NCBI RefSeq assembly: GCF_030551875.1
Contig: NZ_JAUOZU010000007.1
Location: 496,001 to 560,000, forward strand
Reading direction: 5' to 3'
Source of the DNA: Fluviirhizobium alvei
GTDB lineage: Bacteria; Pseudomonadota; Alphaproteobacteria; Rhizobiales; Rhizobiaceae
DNA: 64,000 bases
The notes under the pieces were generated by a model. It had not been told where the DNA came from. It worked only from the letters and a program-made list of their open reading frames with translations, and made no database searches. The translations under genes and the position numbers were made by a program. Every line of letters starts with the position of its first letter. The first letter of the stretch is position 1. Shown here piece by piece: positions 3,927 through 10,657 of this stretch.

Positions 3927-5522
3927 TCAGGCCCGCACATCCTCGAACCGAAGCCCGAAACGCGCGAGATATTTCACCAGCCGGTCGGCGTCGTTGCTGC
4001 TCTTCTTTTCAAGCCGGGAATGCGCAAACAATGCTCGGCCCGCTGCACTTGCCGTCGCATGCTGGCGGCAAAGAGAAAGCACATCGGCTAGCTGGACGGC
4101 ATCGAACCGGTCGAGCCGTTCGCTGGCCTCCTCCCCCAGAACCTCTTTCAAGAGGATAAGTTCGCCCGCGGCGGCCGGCTTCCAGAATGACCGCAGCCTT
4201 TCAATCTCAGCATCGACCACCTCGGTCGTGATACGGCCTTGTGGCGCAAGCGTCGCCATTCTTGTCACGGAAGCCGAAAGATCGCGGAAATTGGCGCTCC
4301 AGACCGCCTCAGGGCTGGTAGCAAATTGCAGATACCGCTGCCGTGCCTCCTTGTTGAAGGTGACCGCCTGCCCTTCCCTCTCGAGAAAGCGCCGCAGTTC
4401 GAACTCGAGATTCGGCTCGATATCTTCCTTGCGGTCGCTGAGCGCGGGCAACCGGAAGGTCCAGAGATTGAGACGGGCATAGAGATCCTCGCGGAACTTG
4501 CCCTTGCGCACATCCTCGCCGAGATCGCGGTTGGTTCCGGCAAGCAGCTGGAAATCGGCCGAGACCTCCTTGTCGGCTCCGACAGGCAGAAACCGCTTCT
4601 CTTCGATCGCGCGCAGGCACATGGCCTGCTCATCGAGTCCCAACTCACCGATTTCATCGAGAAACAGAACCCCCTTGTCCGCCCCTTTCAAGAGGCCGGC
4701 GCGTTCTGCCGCCGCACCGGTGAAAGCACCTTTGACATGACCAAACAGCGCCGACATGGCCTGGTCGCCGCGCAGCGTGGCGCAGTTCACTTCCACGAAC
4801 GCACCGGTGATCTTGTGCTGGCTCTTCTTGAGTTCGTAGATGCGCCGCGCCAGCTGCGATTTGCCCGCACCGGTCGGCCCGGTGAGAAGCACAGGCGCTT
4901 TCGAGCGCACCACGACGCGCTCGATTTCATCGATCATGCGGTTGAAGGCGACGTTGCGCGTCGAGATGCCGGATTTGAGGAAAGACGTTGCCTCAGCCTG
5001 TTCGACAGCAAAACGCTTGGCGATTTCGTCATAACGGGAGAGATCAAGATCGATGATCGTGTGCGTGCCCGCATAGTCATCGAACTTGCTCCGGTCGCGC
5101 GGCGGTGAAAGCTGCAACAGGCGGGCGGGAATGATGCGCGCCTCGGTCAGCAGGAACCAGCAGATCTGCGCCACATGGGTGCCGGTAGTGATGTTGACGA
5201 TATAGTCTTCGCTCTCCAGATCGAAAGGGTAGGTTCGGGCGAAATCGCGGAGCTTGGTATAGACTTCCGAAAAGTCCCAGGGATCCCGGAAGTTGATCAC
5301 ATTGCGGCGCACATCAGTTGCCGGCGACACGATCTCGATGTCGCTGACGATGCGGGCAGCCAGCGCACCGGCATGGGTATCATGGATCATTTCCAGTCTG
5401 TCGATGAACAGACCTGTCTGCTGGCAGAGCGCCACATTCGGCCGCCACCGTGTCCAGCGGTCTTCGCGCTTGCCCATGTCGAGCGTGGTTCCAAGGATGC
5501 TGATGGCAACGCGGCGCTTCAT
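3927..5522 (-). CDS. rtcR: Sigma-54-dependent RNA-repair operon activator RtcR
   Basis: Transcription activator of the RNA-repair operon. The 531-residue protein has an N-terminal RtcR ligand domain (about 1-180; CARF-like in published family descriptions). Next comes an AAA+ sigma-54 interaction domain with Walker A LLTGPTGAGKSQLA (about 213-226), the sigma-54 contact loop GAFTGA (about 262) and Walker B GVLFLDEIGEL. The C-terminal helical DNA-binding region is about 470-531. In enterobacteria RtcR is switched on by RNA-damage products binding the CARF domain. Here it is transcribed divergently from rsr, with a perfect sigma-54 promoter and a palindrome between them, so the target is evident from context. 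Confidence 0.95.
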   Translation of the reverse strand: MKRRVAISILGTTLDMGKREDRWTRWRPNVALCQQTGLFIDRLEMIHDTHAGALAARIVSDIEIVSPATDVRRNVINFRDPWDFSEVYTKLRDFARTYPFDLESEDYIVNITTGTHVAQICWFLLTEARIIPARLLQLSPPRDRSKFDDYAGTHTIIDLDLSRYDEIAKRFAVEQAEATSFLKSGISTRNVAFNRMIDEIERVVVRSKAPVLLTGPTGAGKSQLARRIYELKKSQHKITGAFVEVNCATLRGDQAMSALFGHVKGAFTGAAAERAGLLKGADKGVLFLDEIGELGLDEQAMCLRAIEEKRFLPVGADKEVSADFQLLAGTNRDLGEDVRKGKFREDLYARLNLWTFRLPALSDRKEDIEPNLEFELRRFLEREGQAVTFNKEARQRYLQFATSPEAVWSANFRDLSASVTRMATLAPQGRITTEVVDAEIERLRSFWKPAAAGELILLKEVLGEEASERLDRFDAVQLADVLSLCRQHATASAAGRALFAHSRLEKKSSNDADRLVKYLARFGLRFEDVRA

Positions 5523-5682: not shown

Positions 5683-5698
5683 TGGCACGCTGCCTGCA
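5683..5698 (+). promoter_or_regulatory. Sigma-54 (-24/-12) promoter of the rsr-array-rtcB operon
   Basis: TGGCACG-CTGC-CTGCA matches the RpoN consensus TGGCACG-N4-TTGCA. The essential GG (5684-5685) and GC (5696-5697) are separated by exactly 10 nt. Transcription should start near 5709. An ATG at 5710 would then be leaderless, which supports the rsr start at 5734. Confidence 0.88.
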
Positions 5699-5733
5699 AA
5701 TGAAGTGGCATGAACAACCGAAAAGGTGCTGTC

Positions 5734-7290
5734 ATGGCAAACAAGGCAATCTTCAAATCCTATCCCGGAAAACTGCTTCCGGGCACGGACACCAAAAACG
5801 CAGAGGCAGCAACGGCTTATGCGCTGACGCAGCGCGAGGCCTTGGCGCAGTATGCGGTCACTGGAACCTTGAACAGCACCTTTTACGCCGATGGCGCCGA
5901 ACAGCTCGATGCGGTGATGTACCTGGCGCTCGAAGTCGAACCGGAGTTCCTGGCGAAGGTGGCGATCCACGCCGCCGAGAAAGGTCATATGAAGGATATG
6001 CCGGTGACCTTGCTGGCCCTGCTTTCGGGTCTTCAGAGCGATGCCTTCGCCCGTGCCTTCCCGCGTGTGGTCAAGAGCGGCAAGATGCTGCGGACCTTCG
6101 TGCAGGTGATGCGTTCGGGTGCCGCTGGTCGCAAGTCGCTGGGAACGCGACCGAAAAAAATGGTCCAGGCCTGGCTCGAACGCGCAAGCACCGAGCAGAT
6201 CCTGCGCGCCATGGTCGGCAACGATCCCTCGCTCGCCGATGTGATCCGGATGGTGCATCCGAAGCCTGCAACAGCGGAGCGCAAGGCGCTCTATGCCTGG
6301 GCGATCGGAAGGCCACATGATCAGGCGCAGTTGCCCGATCTCGTCAAGGCGCTGGAAGCGTTTCGGCGTGACCAGACGAATCCGATACCGGATGTGCCGT
6401 TCCAGATGCTGACCTCGCTTGCGTTGACGCGCGAGCAATGGGTCGCGATCGCCCGCAAGGGCAGCTGGCAGATGGTGCGACAGAACCTCAACACCTTTGC
6501 ACGCCATGGCGTGTTTGAGGTTGCGGGGGTGGCCGAACAGCTGGCGGCGCGGCTGGCTGACCCCGATGAGATCCGCAAGGCGAAAGTCTTCCCCTACCAG
6601 TTGATGGTAGCGTGGAAGATGGTTGACCCGGCGGTGCCACATGTGGTGCGCGATGCGTTGCAGGATGCAATGCAGGTGGCGATCGGCAATGTGCCGGTCG
6701 TGCCCGGCAATGTCGTGCTCTGCCCTGACGTATCTGGCTCGATGAGCTGGCCGGTGACGGGTTACCGCAAGGGGGCCACGTCGGCGGTGCGCTGCATCGA
6801 CGTGGCTGGCCTGCTGACGGCGGCTTTCTTGGAGCGCAACCCGAAGGCACGCGTGCTGCCGTTCGAGAATGACGTCGTGAACGTGGATCTCAACCGGCGC
6901 GACTCGGTGATGACCAATGCCGAGAAGCTGGCGGCAATCGGCGGTGGCGGAACCAACTGCTCTGCTCCGTTGAAGCGGCTCGCGGACGAGAAGGCGAAGG
7001 TCGACCTTGTTCTGTTCATCTCGGACAACCAGTCCTGGATGGATGCGCGGCCGAACGGGCAGGCGTCTGCAATGATGGTCGAATGGGCGCGGATCAAGAC
7101 GCAGAACCCGGCTGCGAAGCTGGTCTGCCTCGATATCCAGCCCTACGCGACGTCGCAGGCGGTGACATCGGCCGATGTGCTGAATATCGGCGGCTTCTCG
7201 GATGCCGTCTTCAGCGCCATCGCAGCCTTCGCCGCCGGCAAGTCCGGAACGGAAAGCTGGGTGAAGACAATCGAGGACATTGCCCTTTGA
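5734..7290 (+). CDS. rsr: Ro60 orthologue Rsr (TROVE + vWA domain RNA-binding protein)
   Basis: Ring-shaped RNA-binding protein that holds Y RNAs and misfolded RNAs and, in other bacteria, tethers exoribonucleases. The 518-residue protein has an N-terminal TROVE/HEAT region (about 1-320) and a C-terminal von Willebrand A domain with MIDAS DVSGSMS (D332), the downstream Thr of GGGGTNCS (T407) and the Asp of LFISDNQSW (about 431). I choose the ATG at 5734 (MANKAIFKSYPG) because AAAGG lies just upstream and the sigma-54 start falls near 5709. It opens the operon and is followed immediately by five Y-RNA-like units, its expected ligands, then by rtcB. Confidence 0.95.
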   Translation: MANKAIFKSYPGKLLPGTDTKNAEAATAYALTQREALAQYAVTGTLNSTFYADGAEQLDAVMYLALEVEPEFLAKVAIHAAEKGHMKDMPVTLLALLSGLQSDAFARAFPRVVKSGKMLRTFVQVMRSGAAGRKSLGTRPKKMVQAWLERASTEQILRAMVGNDPSLADVIRMVHPKPATAERKALYAWAIGRPHDQAQLPDLVKALEAFRRDQTNPIPDVPFQMLTSLALTREQWVAIARKGSWQMVRQNLNTFARHGVFEVAGVAEQLAARLADPDEIRKAKVFPYQLMVAWKMVDPAVPHVVRDALQDAMQVAIGNVPVVPGNVVLCPDVSGSMSWPVTGYRKGATSAVRCIDVAGLLTAAFLERNPKARVLPFENDVVNVDLNRRDSVMTNAEKLAAIGGGGTNCSAPLKRLADEKAKVDLVLFISDNQSWMDARPNGQASAMMVEWARIKTQNPAAKLVCLDIQPYATSQAVTSADVLNIGGFSDAVFSAIAAFAAGKSGTESWVKTIEDIAL

Positions 7291-7326: not shown

Positions 7327-7503
7327 GCCGTGACGAATGCCGGAAGAAACTACAGGCTATCACCCTCCAGGTCGCGGGTTCGAATCCCGTCGGGTCCCCC
7401 ATACTTGTTTGCGCGCAGCCGCCACACCAACCCTGCGCGCGCAACATGGACCCGTAGCTCAGTGGACAGAGCAGGGCGTTTCTCCAACTCTCGTCGTCAC
7501 GGC
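7327..7503 (+). ncRNA. Y-RNA-like permuted tRNA mimic, unit 1 (YrlA-type)
   Basis: The terminal Ro-type stem pairs GCCGTGACGA (7327-7336) with TCGTCACGGC (7494-7503), 10 bp. Then CGAATGC, an inner helix AGAAAC (7345-7350)/GTTTCT (7478-7483) and the array-invariant ACTACA. The T-arm (7374-7390) has loop TTCGAAT. The acceptor stem CGGGTCC (7391-7397)/GGACCCG (7448-7454) is perfect over 7 bp, so 3' and 5' acceptor strands are joined by a loop: a circularly permuted tRNA. The D-arm is GCTC/GAGC (7457-7472). Its acceptor loop is unusually long (50 nt) and carries a second GC-rich hairpin, GCGCGCAG (7411-7418)/CTGCGCGC (7433-7440). Assignment to YrlA RNAs rests on fold and location beside rsr. Confidence 0.85.
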
Positions 7504-7517
7504 GAGCATACGAAATG

Positions 7518-7626
7518 CATGGCGAATGCAAGAGAAACTACATCTCCGTCTCGGGTTCGACTCCCGGCGGGGCGAAAGCCTCGAAGCTCACGGCGAGCAA
7601 GATGTTTCTCAACCCTCGTCGCCATG
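7518..7626 (+). ncRNA. Y-RNA-like permuted tRNA mimic, unit 2
   Basis: The terminal stem pairs CATGGCGA (7518-7525) with TCGCCATG (7619-7626). The inner helix GAGAAAC (7532-7538)/GTTTCTC (7604-7610) is 7 bp, followed by ACTACA. The T-arm (7551-7567) has loop TTCGACT. The acceptor CGGGGC (7568-7573)/GCCTCG (7578-7583) is capped by a GAAA tetraloop, the clearest sign that the acceptor end is closed and cannot be aminoacylated. The D-arm is GCTC-ACGGC-GAGC (7586-7598). Unit length is 109 nt. Confidence 0.87.
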
Positions 7627-7654
7627 GCTGGTTGAACAGGAAAAGAGTGAAATA

Positions 7655-7771
7655 CATGACGAATGCGAAAGGGAACTACATCTGTGTAGCGGGTTCGAGT
7701 CCCGCCAGGGCACTCGCCCTGTAGCTCAACGGGTAGAGCAAGGCGTTTCCACGAAATACTTTGTCGTCATG
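7655..7771 (+). ncRNA. Y-RNA-like permuted tRNA mimic, unit 3
   Basis: The terminal stem pairs CATGACGA (7655-7662) with TCGTCATG (7764-7771). The inner helix is GGGAAC (7671-7676)/GTTTCC (7745-7750) with one G-U pair, then ACTACA. The T-arm GCGGG-TTCGAGT-CCCGC (7689-7705) is perfect. The acceptor CAGGGC (7706-7711)/GCCCTG (7716-7721) is closed by ACTC. U8-A9 are present, and the D-arm GCTC-AACGGGTA-GAGC spans 7724-7739. This is the most canonical unit. Confidence 0.88.
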
Positions 7772-7780
7772 ACCTGAAAT

Positions 7781-7911
7781 GCAGCGGCGAATGCCCGACG
7801 GAACTACAGCCTCCAACGTTGGGATGGTCTGGCAGGTTCGACTCCTCCTCGGCATACGCTCTCTGGCACGAGCGGGACCATTCCGGTTTCGTCCATCCTC
7901 GTCGCCGCTGC
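7781..7911 (+). ncRNA. Y-RNA-like permuted tRNA mimic, unit 4 (degenerate acceptor)
   Basis: It has the longest perfect terminal stem with unit 1: GCAGCGGCGA (7781-7790)/TCGCCGCTGC (7902-7911). The inner helix is GACGGAAC (7797-7804)/GTTTCGTC (7886-7893), followed by ACTACA. The T-arm keeps loop TTCGACT (7837-7843) with one C-C mismatch in the stem, and the D-arm GCTC-N8-GAGC (7858-7873) is intact. The stretch between T- and D-arms (7849-7857) is too short for a normal acceptor stem, so the tRNA elbow may remain without an acceptor. Confidence 0.78.
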
Positions 7912-7921
7912 TCAGGAACAC

Positions 7922-8058
7922 CCCCGGCGAATGCCGGCAGGACTACATGGATAGAGCGCTTCTGCAATTGCAGGAGAGGTCGGATGATCGAACCATCCCG
8001 GTTCCGGTAACGGAACGCGTAGCTCAGGAAAATGTCTTGCCACCCGTTGTCGCCGGGG
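7922..8058 (+). ncRNA. Y-RNA-like permuted tRNA mimic, unit 5 (degenerate D-arm, extra hairpin)
   Basis: The terminal stem pairs CCCCGGCGA (7922-7930) with TCGCCGGGG (8050-8058). The inner helix is GGCAGGAC (7936-7943)/GTCTTGCC (8034-8041), followed by ACTACA. An additional hairpin CTTCTGC-AATT-GCAGGAG (7959-7976) sits where a variable arm would be. The T-arm GGATG-ATCGAAC-CATCC (7982-7998) has A in place of T54. An acceptor-like stem GTTCC/GGAAC (8001-8016) follows. GCTC of the D-stem is present (8022-8025) but its GAGC partner is missing. This is the most diverged copy, nearest rtcB. Confidence 0.78.
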
Positions 8059-8108: not shown

Positions 8109-9530
8109 ATGATCGAGATAGTGAGCGGACAGGATTTGATCAATGCCGGCATGAGCCAGGGCAAGTGGTTTCGCCATGCCCTTGTGGCGGCCAACAAGGT
8201 GCTGGAGCAAGGCGGCTCGATGGCCGATGCGCTGGCGACGGCGCGCACATTCGCGCCGGGTCCGACCTTGCCGCTGAAGCTGGAAAACGACGTGGAAATC
8301 CACATGAACATTCGCGCCGAAGACGAATTCGAACGGGACAACGTCGAAAAGGTCAATGCGACCATGCGGGCACTGGCACGCACGCCGGTGGTCAAGGCCG
8401 CAGCGATCATGCCCGACGCCTGCCCTTCGGGTCCGGTCGGCACGATCCCCGTTGGCGGCGTCGTCGCATCCGAAGCGATCCATCCAGGCATGCACTCGGC
8501 AGACATCTGCTGCTCGATGGCGATTTCGATCTTTCCGGGCGTGGCACCGAAGGACCTTCTGGATGCCGTCCATGGCGTGACGCATTTCGGCCCGGGTGGT
8601 CGTCCGCGTGGTGCCCAGATCAGGCCGTCGGACGCGACGCTTTCGGCCTTTCGCGAGAACCCGTTCCTGACGGACGTCATTGCCGTGGCTATCGAGCATT
8701 TCGCCACCCAGGGCGATGGCAACCATTTTGCCTATGTTGGCCAGATGAAATCGACCGGTGAGGCCGCGCTTGTGACCCACCATGGATCGCGGGCACCTGG
8801 CGCGCGCCTCTACGACAAGGGCATGAAGACCGCCAATCGCTACCGCGAGCAGCTTTCGCCGGAAACGCTGAAGGACAATGCCTGGATTCCGGCCGACACC
8901 GAAGATGGTGAGGCCTATTGGGCGGCGCTCCAGGCAATCCGCCAGTGGACGAAGGAGAACCATCTGGCCATCCACGACATGGCGGCGGAAAAGCTGTCCG
9001 CCAAGGTCGCCGATCGCTTCTGGAACGAACATAATTTCGTGTTCCGGAAGTCCGACGGGCTCTTCTATCACGGCAAGGGTGCGACACCGGCCTTCGATGG
9101 CTGGGCGGAGGATGCGACGGACCTGACGCTCATACCGCTCAACATGGCGGAACCGATCCTGATTGCGCGTGGATCGAATGCCGCAAACGGACTTGGCTTT
9201 TCGCCGCACGGCGCCGGGCGCAACTTCTCGCGGACGAGCCATATCCGTCGGCTGGGTGAAGAACATGGTGCCGACAGCCGTGGATTGAGCCCGAACAACA
9301 TTGCCGCGATCATGGCGAAGGAAACGGAAGGATTGGATGTCCGGTTCTTCTCCAATGCACCCGACGTCTCGGAACTGCCGAGCGCCTACAAGAATGCCGC
9401 CAATGTGCGGGCACAGATCGAGCATTACGGCCTTGCCGAAGTGGTCGATGAAGTGATCCCCTATGGCTGCATCATGGCCGGCGACTGGCAGAAGGACGCG
9501 CCCTGGAGAAAGAAGAAAGTCCGCGCATGA
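8109..9530 (+). CDS. rtcB: RNA ligase RtcB
   Basis: Mn2+/GTP-dependent ligase joining RNA 2',3'-cyclic-phosphate or 3'-phosphate ends to 5'-OH ends. Motifs in the 473-residue protein: metal-site segment HPGMHSADICCSMA (125-138, replacing the commoner GVDIGCGM form), GDGNHF, HHGSRAPGARLYDKG, HNFVF, HGKGATPA, the SPHGAGR segment whose His (H367) should be guanylylated, and the C-terminal IPYGCIMAGD. The variant metal site suggests a divergent RtcB subgroup. It is the last gene of the rsr-array operon and is followed by a strong terminator. No rtcA (RNA cyclase) accompanies it. The start lacks a strong ribosome site; GAGAAGGA lies about 20 nt upstream. Confidence 0.92.
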   Translation: MIEIVSGQDLINAGMSQGKWFRHALVAANKVLEQGGSMADALATARTFAPGPTLPLKLENDVEIHMNIRAEDEFERDNVEKVNATMRALARTPVVKAAAIMPDACPSGPVGTIPVGGVVASEAIHPGMHSADICCSMAISIFPGVAPKDLLDAVHGVTHFGPGGRPRGAQIRPSDATLSAFRENPFLTDVIAVAIEHFATQGDGNHFAYVGQMKSTGEAALVTHHGSRAPGARLYDKGMKTANRYREQLSPETLKDNAWIPADTEDGEAYWAALQAIRQWTKENHLAIHDMAAEKLSAKVADRFWNEHNFVFRKSDGLFYHGKGATPAFDGWAEDATDLTLIPLNMAEPILIARGSNAANGLGFSPHGAGRNFSRTSHIRRLGEEHGADSRGLSPNNIAAIMAKETEGLDVRFFSNAPDVSELPSAYKNAANVRAQIEHYGLAEVVDEVIPYGCIMAGDWQKDAPWRKKKVRA

Positions 9531-9601: not shown

Positions 9602-10657
9602 TTAGACAACAGTAGCTGCATCCTTCTGCTGTTCGGCATAGCTCGCAAAGGTCGCGGTGAAGCGGCCATTGACATAGTCACCCGAGCTGATCGGCGGATA
9701 TTTTGCCGGATGATCTTCATCGACGCAGCTCGGCAGCACTTCGACGATCGTGTCGTAGTTCGGCCCGAAGAAGAACGGGATCGAATAACGCTCCTTGCCG
9801 GACCGGTTGATGGCACGGTGAACTGTCGAGGCGAACAGGTCATTGGTCCAGCGCGCCATCTGGTCGCCGACATTGACGACGAAGCAATCTTCCATCGGAT
9901 CGGCCGCAATCCATTCGCCAGCGGCGTTGAGCACCTGTAGCGCGGGAATGCCCATCTGCTGCGCAAGAATGGTGAAGCATTCATAGTCGGAATGGGCACC
10001 GATGCCGATCTGGCGTTCGTCGATCTCGCCGAATTGCGGCGGATAGTGCAGCACCCGGAGGGTAGCCAGAGGCTTCGTCACCATGGCATCGAAATAGGTT
10101 TCCTCAAGCCCGAGCGCTAGCGCGAAAGCATGCAGGAGGTGATGGCTGAGCTTGATCATTTCGGCATGGTAGGATTCGAGCGCCTTGCGGAAGGACGGGC
10201 GGTCTTCCGGCCACTGGTTGGGGCCGTAGAGCACTTTCCCGGCCAGAACATCGGGATCATCGGCCGGCACATCGAGCGCGATATCGAAGGATTCATGCAG
10301 GTCGCCACGGGCGGTAGGATCGGTATTCTCCTCAAGCATGGCGGCATAGCCGCGCAGGTTGGACGATTTGGAGACATGGTTCTTCATCTTCGCCTCATCA
10401 GGCTGGGCGAAGAACTGCTCAGCTTCGGCAAAGGCCGCCGCCAGCGCCTCCTTGGGAAAATGGTGGTTCTTGATATAGAGAAAGCCCACCTGCGTGCAGG
10501 CATGGCGCAGGCTCTCCGCCAACGCGGCCTTGGCATCCGCATCGCCGCTGAACATGGGCTCCAGATCGATGACCGGGATCTGGTCGAAAGGGACCCTCAC
10601 CGGATCCAGGCCGGACTTGATCAGACGTGCACCGTTTCCTGTCGGCAATTCTTTCAT
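9602..10657 (-). CDS. 2-oxoglutarate/Fe(II)-dependent dioxygenase, isopenicillin-N-synthase family
   Basis: Cytoplasmic non-haem iron oxygenase of 351 residues. It has an N-terminal DIOX_N-like region (about 25-140: VIDLEPMFSG..., GFLYIKNHHFP) and a C-terminal jelly-roll. The iron facial triad is HSDYE plus the distal His of STVHRAINRS, and the 2OG-binding Arg-x-Ser is ERYSIPFF. The substrate is unknown. The ATG overlaps the upstream lysR stop by four bases (ATGA, 10654-10657), so the two form a coupled operon in which the regulator is translated first. Confidence 0.88.
   Translation of the reverse strand: MKELPTGNGARLIKSGLDPVRVPFDQIPVIDLEPMFSGDADAKAALAESLRHACTQVGFLYIKNHHFPKEALAAAFAEAEQFFAQPDEAKMKNHVSKSSNLRGYAAMLEENTDPTARGDLHESFDIALDVPADDPDVLAGKVLYGPNQWPEDRPSFRKALESYHAEMIKLSHHLLHAFALALGLEETYFDAMVTKPLATLRVLHYPPQFGEIDERQIGIGAHSDYECFTILAQQMGIPALQVLNAAGEWIAADPMEDCFVVNVGDQMARWTNDLFASTVHRAINRSGKERYSIPFFFGPNYDTIVEVLPSCVDEDHPAKYPPISSGDYVNGRFTATFASYAEQQKDAATVV

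Follow-up and report, generated by a model that had tools for sequence, protein, structure and literature searches.

Y RNA units resembling permuted tRNAs opened at two sites, in a five-unit array between rsr and rtcB of Fluviirhizobium alvei

The array between rsr and rtcB

The window analyzed here, a stretch of 64,000 nucleotides (nt) from the 5.2-Mb genome of Fluviirhizobium alvei (RefSeq assembly GCF_030551875.1, contig NZ_JAUOZU010000007.1, positions 496,001 to 560,000 of the forward strand), carries an RNA-repair locus in which rtcR diverges from rsr, a sigma54-like promoter (TGGCACGCTGCCTGC) precedes rsr, and five Y RNA units, the first of them encoded beside the end of rsr, lead up to the RNA ligase gene rtcB (Table 1). 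The rsr gene is up to 85% identical to its Rhizobium relatives in the best segment, and the first long open reading frame beyond rtcB (9602-10657) lies on the opposite strand. A first-pass annotation had read positions 7327-8058 as a string of five tRNA mimics, YrlA-like and circularly permuted, between rsr and rtcB, and the context agrees with this: the neighbors match the Pfam families TROVE/vWA_Ro60 and RtcB, with a divergent RtcR gene and the sigma54-like site upstream.

All five units were found, their boundaries being set from stem pairing, with spacers of 14, 28, 9, and 10 nt between successive units. Each holds the Rsr-binding-type core CGAATGC...ACTACA, an outer stem of 8-10 base pairs (bp), and an inner stem. 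The Rfam YrlA model (RF02553) matches all five on the plus strand (E values 3e-15 to 2.2), although its gathering score of 69 bits is passed by unit 3 alone, units 1 and 2 falling below it with E values of about 1e-12, and units 4 and 5 at 19.9 and 25.5 bits. The folding stability of every unit exceeds that of 100 mononucleotide shuffles (z −2.1 to −3.7), and ARAGORN calls no tRNA in any unit of the window array as it stands. The five-unit array is thus confirmed, and its assignment to YrlA is supported.

The units are of several designs and are not five copies of one, a point that the first-pass annotation had missed. Units 1-3 have the permuted order of T arm, acceptor, and D arm; in unit 4 an acceptor helix is absent by stem pairing, by an 18-sequence alignment, and by folding, a design conserved among the Rhizobium-like loci of that alignment; and the order in unit 5 is D-arm 3′ half, anticodon arm, T arm, acceptor, D-arm 5′ half. 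The acceptor closed on itself, annotated for most units, stands for units 2, 3, and 5 and falls for unit 1, where CCCA and a 46-nt insert (7402-7447) occupy it, and for unit 4. The D-arm annotated in each unit is split in unit 5, which is permuted at another site. The putative acceptor-loop processing signals of unit 1 (CCA, insert, T at −1) are absent from units 2-5. At least two units look like whole tRNAs opened at unusual sites, with an anticodon-arm-like part retained.

Table 1 Features of the window, and ordinary tRNA genes found inside the arrays of other rsr loci (handles beginning with L).
Feature	Position	Strand	Evidence or remark
rtcR	3927..5522	−	Pfam RtcR 259.5 bits, Sigma54_activat (AAA+) 168.8 bits; divergent from rsr
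Sigma54-like promoter, 5′ of rsr	5683..5697	+	Sequence
rsr (Ro60 orthologue)	5710..7290	+	ATG at 5710 or 5734; Pfam vWA_Ro60 62.1 bits, TROVE 23.6 bits
Y RNA unit 1, class A, read as opened between tRNA positions 28 and 29	7327..7503	+	YrlA 60.8 bits
Unit 1 anticodon-loop-like hairpin AGG-CTATCAC-CCT	7354..7366	+	Insertion in the Rfam YrlA alignment
Unit 1 encoded N73-CCA (CCCA), after the 7-bp acceptor 3′ strand	7398..7401	+	Sequence
Unit 1 junction AT/GGACCCG, U−1 before the acceptor 5′ strand	7446..7454	+	RNase P-like by inference
Y RNA unit 2: T arm, self-closed acceptor, and short D arm	7518..7626	+	YrlA 62.1 bits; fold
Y RNA unit 3: ordinary YrlA with T arm, self-closed acceptor, and D arm	7655..7771	+	YrlA 71.3 bits
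Y RNA unit 4: T arm, then D arm directly	7781..7911	+	YrlA 19.9 bits; 18-sequence alignment
Y RNA unit 5, type D: predicted complete cloverleaf, D-loop opened	7922..8058	+	YrlA 25.5 bits; covariation, rejoining, single-sequence fold
Unit 5 D-stem 3′ strand GAGC, placed first	7954..7957	+	Pairs with 8022-8025
Unit 5 anticodon-arm hairpin CTTCTGC-AATT-GCAGGAG	7959..7976	+	Covariation, fold
Unit 5 T arm GGATG-ATCGAAC-CATCC	7982..7998	+	Covariation
Unit 5 acceptor helix, short closing loop	7999..8019	+	Covariation, fold
Unit 5 D-stem 5′ strand GCTC, placed last	8022..8025	+	Covariation, RNAalifold
rtcB RNA ligase	8109..9530	+	Pfam RtcB 99.6 bits
tRNA-Lys and tRNA-Asn, L070	5175-5250, 5575-5649		ARAGORN
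tRNA-Lys and tRNA-Asn, L076	9052-9126, 9316-9390		ARAGORN
tRNA-Lys and tRNA-Asn, L096	11797-11871, 12073-12147		ARAGORN
tRNA-Lys and tRNA-Asn, L107	4268-4342, 4674-4748		ARAGORN
tRNA-Asn, L080	11973-12048		ARAGORN
Odd tRNA and tRNA-Asn, L103			ARAGORN
tRNA-Pro (CGG or UGG), L083	11874-11950		ARAGORN
tRNA-Pro (CGG or UGG), L087	11854-11930		ARAGORN
tRNA-Pro (CGG or UGG), L105	12005-12080		ARAGORN

tRNA shapes with two opening sites

Comparisons were made over 81 loci, namely the window and the best 80 of 154 stretches encoding an rsr relative in a protein scan. Sequence comparison shows two classes with the predicted shape of a whole tRNA: type D, which includes unit 5, is opened in the D-loop, and class A, which includes unit 1, reads as opened between positions 28 and 29 and carries an anticodon-loop-like hairpin. 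The covariation that the first-pass annotation proposed to test in homologous arrays is present in related genomes, in type D (16 and 40 sequences) as in the stems of class A.

In unit 5, ACTACA is followed by TGGATAGAGC (the D-arm 3′ half), a 7-bp hairpin, a five-base variable loop, and the T arm, and then by a self-closed acceptor, TA, GCTCAG (the D-arm 5′ half), and the Y stem; its single-sequence fold is the proposed type D structure. In an alignment of 16 units scored against the structure of the window unit, 94.6% of the cells were paired, against 82.2% with partners dealt anew, and 25 pairs had changed on both sides where 11.1 were expected. No shuffle out of 500 reached any of five measures, and slid controls gave 37-52%. 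The outer and inner Y stems covary as well (100% and 98.4% of cells paired). Given no structure, RNAalifold predicted the D-stem in its split form, the anticodon arm in part, and the T arm, but missed the acceptor.

A covariance model, with members taken at 69 bits or more, finds 40 type D units, of which the 81 loci contain 37 and other loci three; adding L117 (68.1 bits) gives 38 units in 31 of the 81 loci, and a type D-like stretch below the cut (L104, 11840-11969, 62 bits) was left uncounted. These units come from Rhizobium-like, other Hyphomicrobiales, Rhodobacterales, and Burkholderiales loci and from one Bacteroidota bin. Pairing rises to 96.3% in the 40 sequences (74.3% dealt anew), a figure biased in that direction because the sequences were aligned to the model. 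All 160 D-stem cells are paired, one pair having changed from A-U to C-G in four units, and G18G19 is kept in 39 of the 40. By eye, three stretches (L064 11947-12095, L111 10253-10421, and L068 12073-12214) resemble D-loop-opened class II (Leu-like) tRNAs that have a long variable arm. One tRNA-Leu called in L068 lies over a Y unit and was left out of the tRNA counts.

Such conservation bears on the reading that Y RNA genes merely duplicate while tRNA pieces drift into them unused. Array size and make-up do vary, unit 4 lacks an acceptor helix, and strong YrlA matches are patchy within the genus: among nine genomes, some of them incomplete, four hold matches of at least 60 bits (G000, G002, G005, and G007), two hold weak matches alone, and three hold none. 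However, compensatory changes keep the type D stems over Alphaproteobacteria, Betaproteobacteria, and the Bacteroidota bin, and on account of this covariation we regard a neutral by-product as the least probable explanation of all.

Once type D units were rejoined, by cutting at the acceptor loop and closing the D-loop, a tRNA was called in 28 of the 40 (native 0/40, shuffled 0/1000, wrong cut 2/320); a cruder cut gave 7 of 16. The window's unit 5 is among the 12 without a call. The anticodons assigned differ between species, which argues that no decoding identity is kept in this type.

For class A, we took the units filed by the parser as T-D, 108 minus two in L095, leaving 106; units with a T arm only (106), without a T arm (55), or opened in the D-loop (33, with L112 and L115 misfiled here) stayed outside the hairpin count. 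The distance between CTAC and the T stem is 19-23 nt in 74 of the 106, and in 68 of these the stretch can be read as one strand of a 3-bp stem, a loop of 7 nt, the opposite stem strand, two bases, and the variable loop. Of the 71 units in which the stem could be tested, 68 form it, compared to a mean of 25.8 and a maximum of 38 with partners dealt anew. In 66 of the 68 (33.1 dealt anew), the anticodon-stem pairs 27-43 and 28-42 are made with bases past the D-arm, which places the opening between 28 and 29; the two misses are read as parser slips. The loop carries U33 (T) in 60 and A37 in 63 of the 68, and position 34 is nearly free.

After rejoining, 96 of the 106 units could be parsed, and a tRNA was called in 72 of the 73 of the right length and 4 of the 23 others (native 0/106, shuffled 0/730, wrong cut 2/657), the window's unit 1 being among those called. 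The tRNAs of the genome nearest to the two halves of unit 1 are, weakly, Arg types. Two observations limit the evidence for an anticodon arm in class A. The hairpin is 3 bp long and lies in the minimum-energy fold of 10 of the 68 units, the proposed fold of unit 1 being 2.6 kcal/mol above its minimum, and single-sequence folding was rejected as support for it. Moreover, with the anticodon segment shuffled, ARAGORN still calls a tRNA in 1109 of 1460 cases, so that the calls speak for the order of D, T, and acceptor and not for the hairpin, and ARAGORN was rejected as proof of the arm.

Encoded CCA was found in some of these units. It stands one base past the 7-bp acceptor in 27 of 107 units, with 0-6 occurrences at every other offset from 0 to 11, and 21 of the 68 hairpin units have it. 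U(−1) and a 3′ CCA suit bacterial RNase P. Over the 25 CCA units left when the two of L095 are dropped, T occupies −1 relative to the acceptor 5′ strand in 24 and A occupies −2 in 20 of 24, despite acceptor loops of 1-59 nt, while non-CCA units with a 7-bp acceptor have T at −1 in 10 of 48; the relatedness of the units inflates these tests. The insert of unit 1 contains a GC-rich hairpin (TTGCGCGC...GCGCGCAA), and unit 1 of L038 has a nearly identical insert.

These signals invite the idea that class A units are permuted tRNA genes, in which RNase P would open the acceptor loop, an endonuclease would remove the Y stem, and RtcB would join 28 to 29 to yield a translating tRNA, in the manner of the permuted tRNAs of algae and archaea. 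Rejoined units do form standard cloverleaves, N73-CCA and U−1 are present, RtcB adjoins, and algal permuted tRNA precursors are thought to be joined before RNase P and tRNase Z cut them (PMC3978253). However, many members have acceptors capped by a tight loop and without CCA, the triplets are unlike between sister loci, and 14 of the 25 CCA units carry T or C as discriminator. By the rules of tRNA identity, such a base is odd for units with Asn-type loops. We therefore hold this explanation very unlikely.

Arrays and tRNA genes in other rsr loci

Units were counted by combining the core motif with matches of R1, a model built in this analysis. No unit was counted in one locus (L060, which ends right after rsr), one in 2, two in 9, three in 17, four in 28, five in 14, six in 8, seven in 1, and eight in 1. 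At least five units occur in 24 of the 81 loci, in 22 once stray matches outside the array are removed (one in L045, a motif at 20.8 kb, and two in L095, upstream of rsr), and in 21 if the second cluster of L114, 2 kb further on, is also left out; a minus-strand match in L078 was dropped. The 23 Rhizobium/Brucella-like loci (L038-L059 and the window) have 3-8 units each. A string of five, which the first-pass annotation had singled out as unusual, is therefore ordinary for the clade, and the census rules out array length as a surprising feature.

At E values up to 1e-4, the 130 R1 matches in 29 sources all share the strand of rsr and fall no more than about 1.6 kb past it, and window unit 3 is missed, so R1 alone undercounts. 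A whole-genome census with R1 at E 0.01 gave matches in 261 of 385 and 292 of 398 genomes, nearly all weak; read as tRNA-like noise, it was rejected as a measure of distribution. Short units of 59-87 nt without a T arm, possibly YrlB-like, lie inside the arrays of L054, L055, L058, L061, L063, L068, L071, and L073. A strict sigma54 pattern stands upstream of rsr in 34 of 80 loci (shuffled rate 0.00075) and is lacking in the other 46.

An rsr relative is present in 350 phage records. No Rfam YrlA match was found in three inspected phage rsr regions, which gave one R1 match of 21 bits; a protein scan of viral contigs found nothing, and the motif scan of phage, among the matches listed, gave mostly single matches that are probably due to chance. 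Myxococcus phage Mx1 (L292) has a tRNA-Gly (5784-5854) and a peptidyl-tRNA hydrolase shortly past its Rsr-like gene.

ARAGORN, run over the 1600 nt past rsr in the 81 loci, found ordinary tRNA genes inside nine arrays, all alphaproteobacterial (Table 1). In Rhodobacterales-like genomes (L070, L076, L080, L096, and L107), tRNA-Lys and tRNA-Asn genes sit between Y RNA units. With a pattern of D-arm plus anticodon loop, a second, different tRNA-Asn was found elsewhere in five of six genomes, making the array gene an extra copy there; in the sixth, a 2.7-Mb bin, the array tRNA-Asn was the sole copy found by the pattern.

Possible role and relation to known systems

Together with published work on the pathway, the units suggest a role as Rsr-held tRNA mimics, made upon tRNA damage, that would act as baits and adaptors. 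In this tentative scheme, which we favor, tRNA breakage would lead RtcR to switch on an RtcR/sigma54-controlled RNA-repair operon of rsr, five Y RNAs, and rtcB, and each Y RNA would bind Rsr through the shared core. The tRNA-like portion would engage tRNA-acting enzymes, in the complete classes also through the anticodon-like arm, so that the mimics could serve as baits for tRNA-cleaving nucleases and as adaptors bringing PNPase or RtcB to broken tRNA. As the side of the tRNA shape on which the Rsr-bound helix sits would change with the opening, several tRNA faces might thereby be covered. The decoy role proposed by the first-pass annotation is accordingly plausible, with some support in the sequences.

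We favor baits and adaptors because of what is known of RtcR, PNPase, and inhibition, and because class A triplets are of the types of cleaved tRNAs. RtcR binds 5′ tRNA fragments with a cyclic phosphate, Rsr of Deinococcus is tethered to PNPase by a Y RNA, and a role as competitive inhibitor has been proposed for YrlA (PMC7790460). The tRNAs for Tyr, His, Asn, and Asp are cleaved by colicin E5 and that for Arg by colicin D (PMC9223846), while PrrC cuts tRNA-Lys (PMC3400036). The YrlA matches and operon context, the type D covariation, the tRNA calls after rejoining, the U33 and A37 of class A loops, and the ordinary tRNA genes in nine arrays also count in favor of this scheme. Among the 68 class A triplets, 25 are GUU, GUC, or GUA, 14 are of Lys type, and 10 are of Arg type, in sets that were chosen after inspection of the data and from related sequences, which weakens the case.

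Further points weigh against baits and adaptors. Salmonella YrlA is not cleaved by a RecA-dependent nuclease (PMC7790460). Position 35 is T or C in 67 and position 36 is T in 48 of the 68 class A loops, so the triplet is no free display; ATT, TCA, and CCA triplets and the array tRNA-Pro genes fall outside the nuclease-target grouping. The anticodon-arm loops of type D vary in length and are unlike decoding loops, and units 2-4 have no anticodon-like loop. Ordinary tRNAs occur in 9 of the 81 loci only, and the window is not one of them in the ARAGORN scan.

Several of these facts would fit units that merely tether Rsr to PNPase (RYPER-like) or to other tRNA-binding proteins, with the anticodon-like arm and CCA inherited and kept for shape, and array length a matter of dosage. 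A Y RNA is known to tether Rsr to PNPase (PMC8394870, PMC7790460), units 2-4 do without anticodon-like arms, type D loops are unconstrained, and loci with any unit have from one to eight. Yet shape alone has no obvious need of U33 and A37 held while 34 varies, nor of CCA at exactly one offset with T at −1, and we consider plain adaptors possible, if doubtful.

A more specific form of the bait idea seems somewhat unlikely: an inducible panel of Rsr-held permuted tRNAs with two opening sites, whose anticodon-type loops (mostly Asn/Asp/Tyr, Lys, and Arg) would be bait for anticodon nucleases, some lineages adding spare tRNAs for the same targets and some members being opened by RNase P at the encoded CCA end. 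What bacterial Y RNAs do beside RtcB is an open question (PMC7790460). Should many prove to be whole tRNAs that present an anticodon-type loop on Rsr, baiting could be tested directly; both the Rfam model and the current view of YrlA as lacking an anticodon arm would need widening, bacteria would have two further ways to permute the tRNA shape, and there would be concrete candidates for the RNAs met by RtcB, PNPase, and RNase P in the repair pathway.

Like YrlA (RF02553; Salmonella YrlA, PDB 6CU1), the window units lie beside rsr and rtcB and share the core CGAAUGC...ACUAC, the outer and inner stems, and, in units 1-3, permuted T, acceptor, and D arms. Circular permutation of YrlA relative to tRNA is already known (PMC11472068), and excerpts of PMC8394870 describe it with D, T, and acceptor arms alone. 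In contrast, the class of unit 5 is opened in the D-loop with the anticodon arm kept, that of unit 1 has an anticodon-like hairpin, an insertion for Rfam, and in part an encoded CCA, and unit 4 has no acceptor. Among the matches listed in a search of full-text literature, seen in excerpts, no D-loop-opened or anticodon-bearing Y RNA and no tRNA genes inside Y RNA arrays were described.

The permuted tRNA genes of algae and Thermofilum pendens (PMC3978253) also have the 3′ half first and the acceptor ends linked by an intervening piece; one of their types is opened in the D-loop (20/21), and CCA is encoded in T. pendens. Unlike in that type, the D-loop opening here lies before G18G19, and the opening on the anticodon side is at 28/29 instead of 37/38. 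The outer ends here form a putative Rsr-binding Y stem.

The Salmonella rsr-yrlBA-rtcBA operon (PMC7790460) shares with the window a divergent RtcR, a sigma54-type activator, as well as rsr, Y RNAs, and rtcB, whereas the window has more units and more kinds of them. The translation-stress tRNA operon of Anabaena (PMC10272220) resembles the arrays in its stress-controlled additional tRNAs and in a regulon that also takes in rtcB; unlike them, it is controlled by TrcR, and the excerpts of that paper mention no Y RNAs. What is new at this locus would then be, provisionally, the architecture of the units, that is, the D-loop-opened and 28/29-opened classes.
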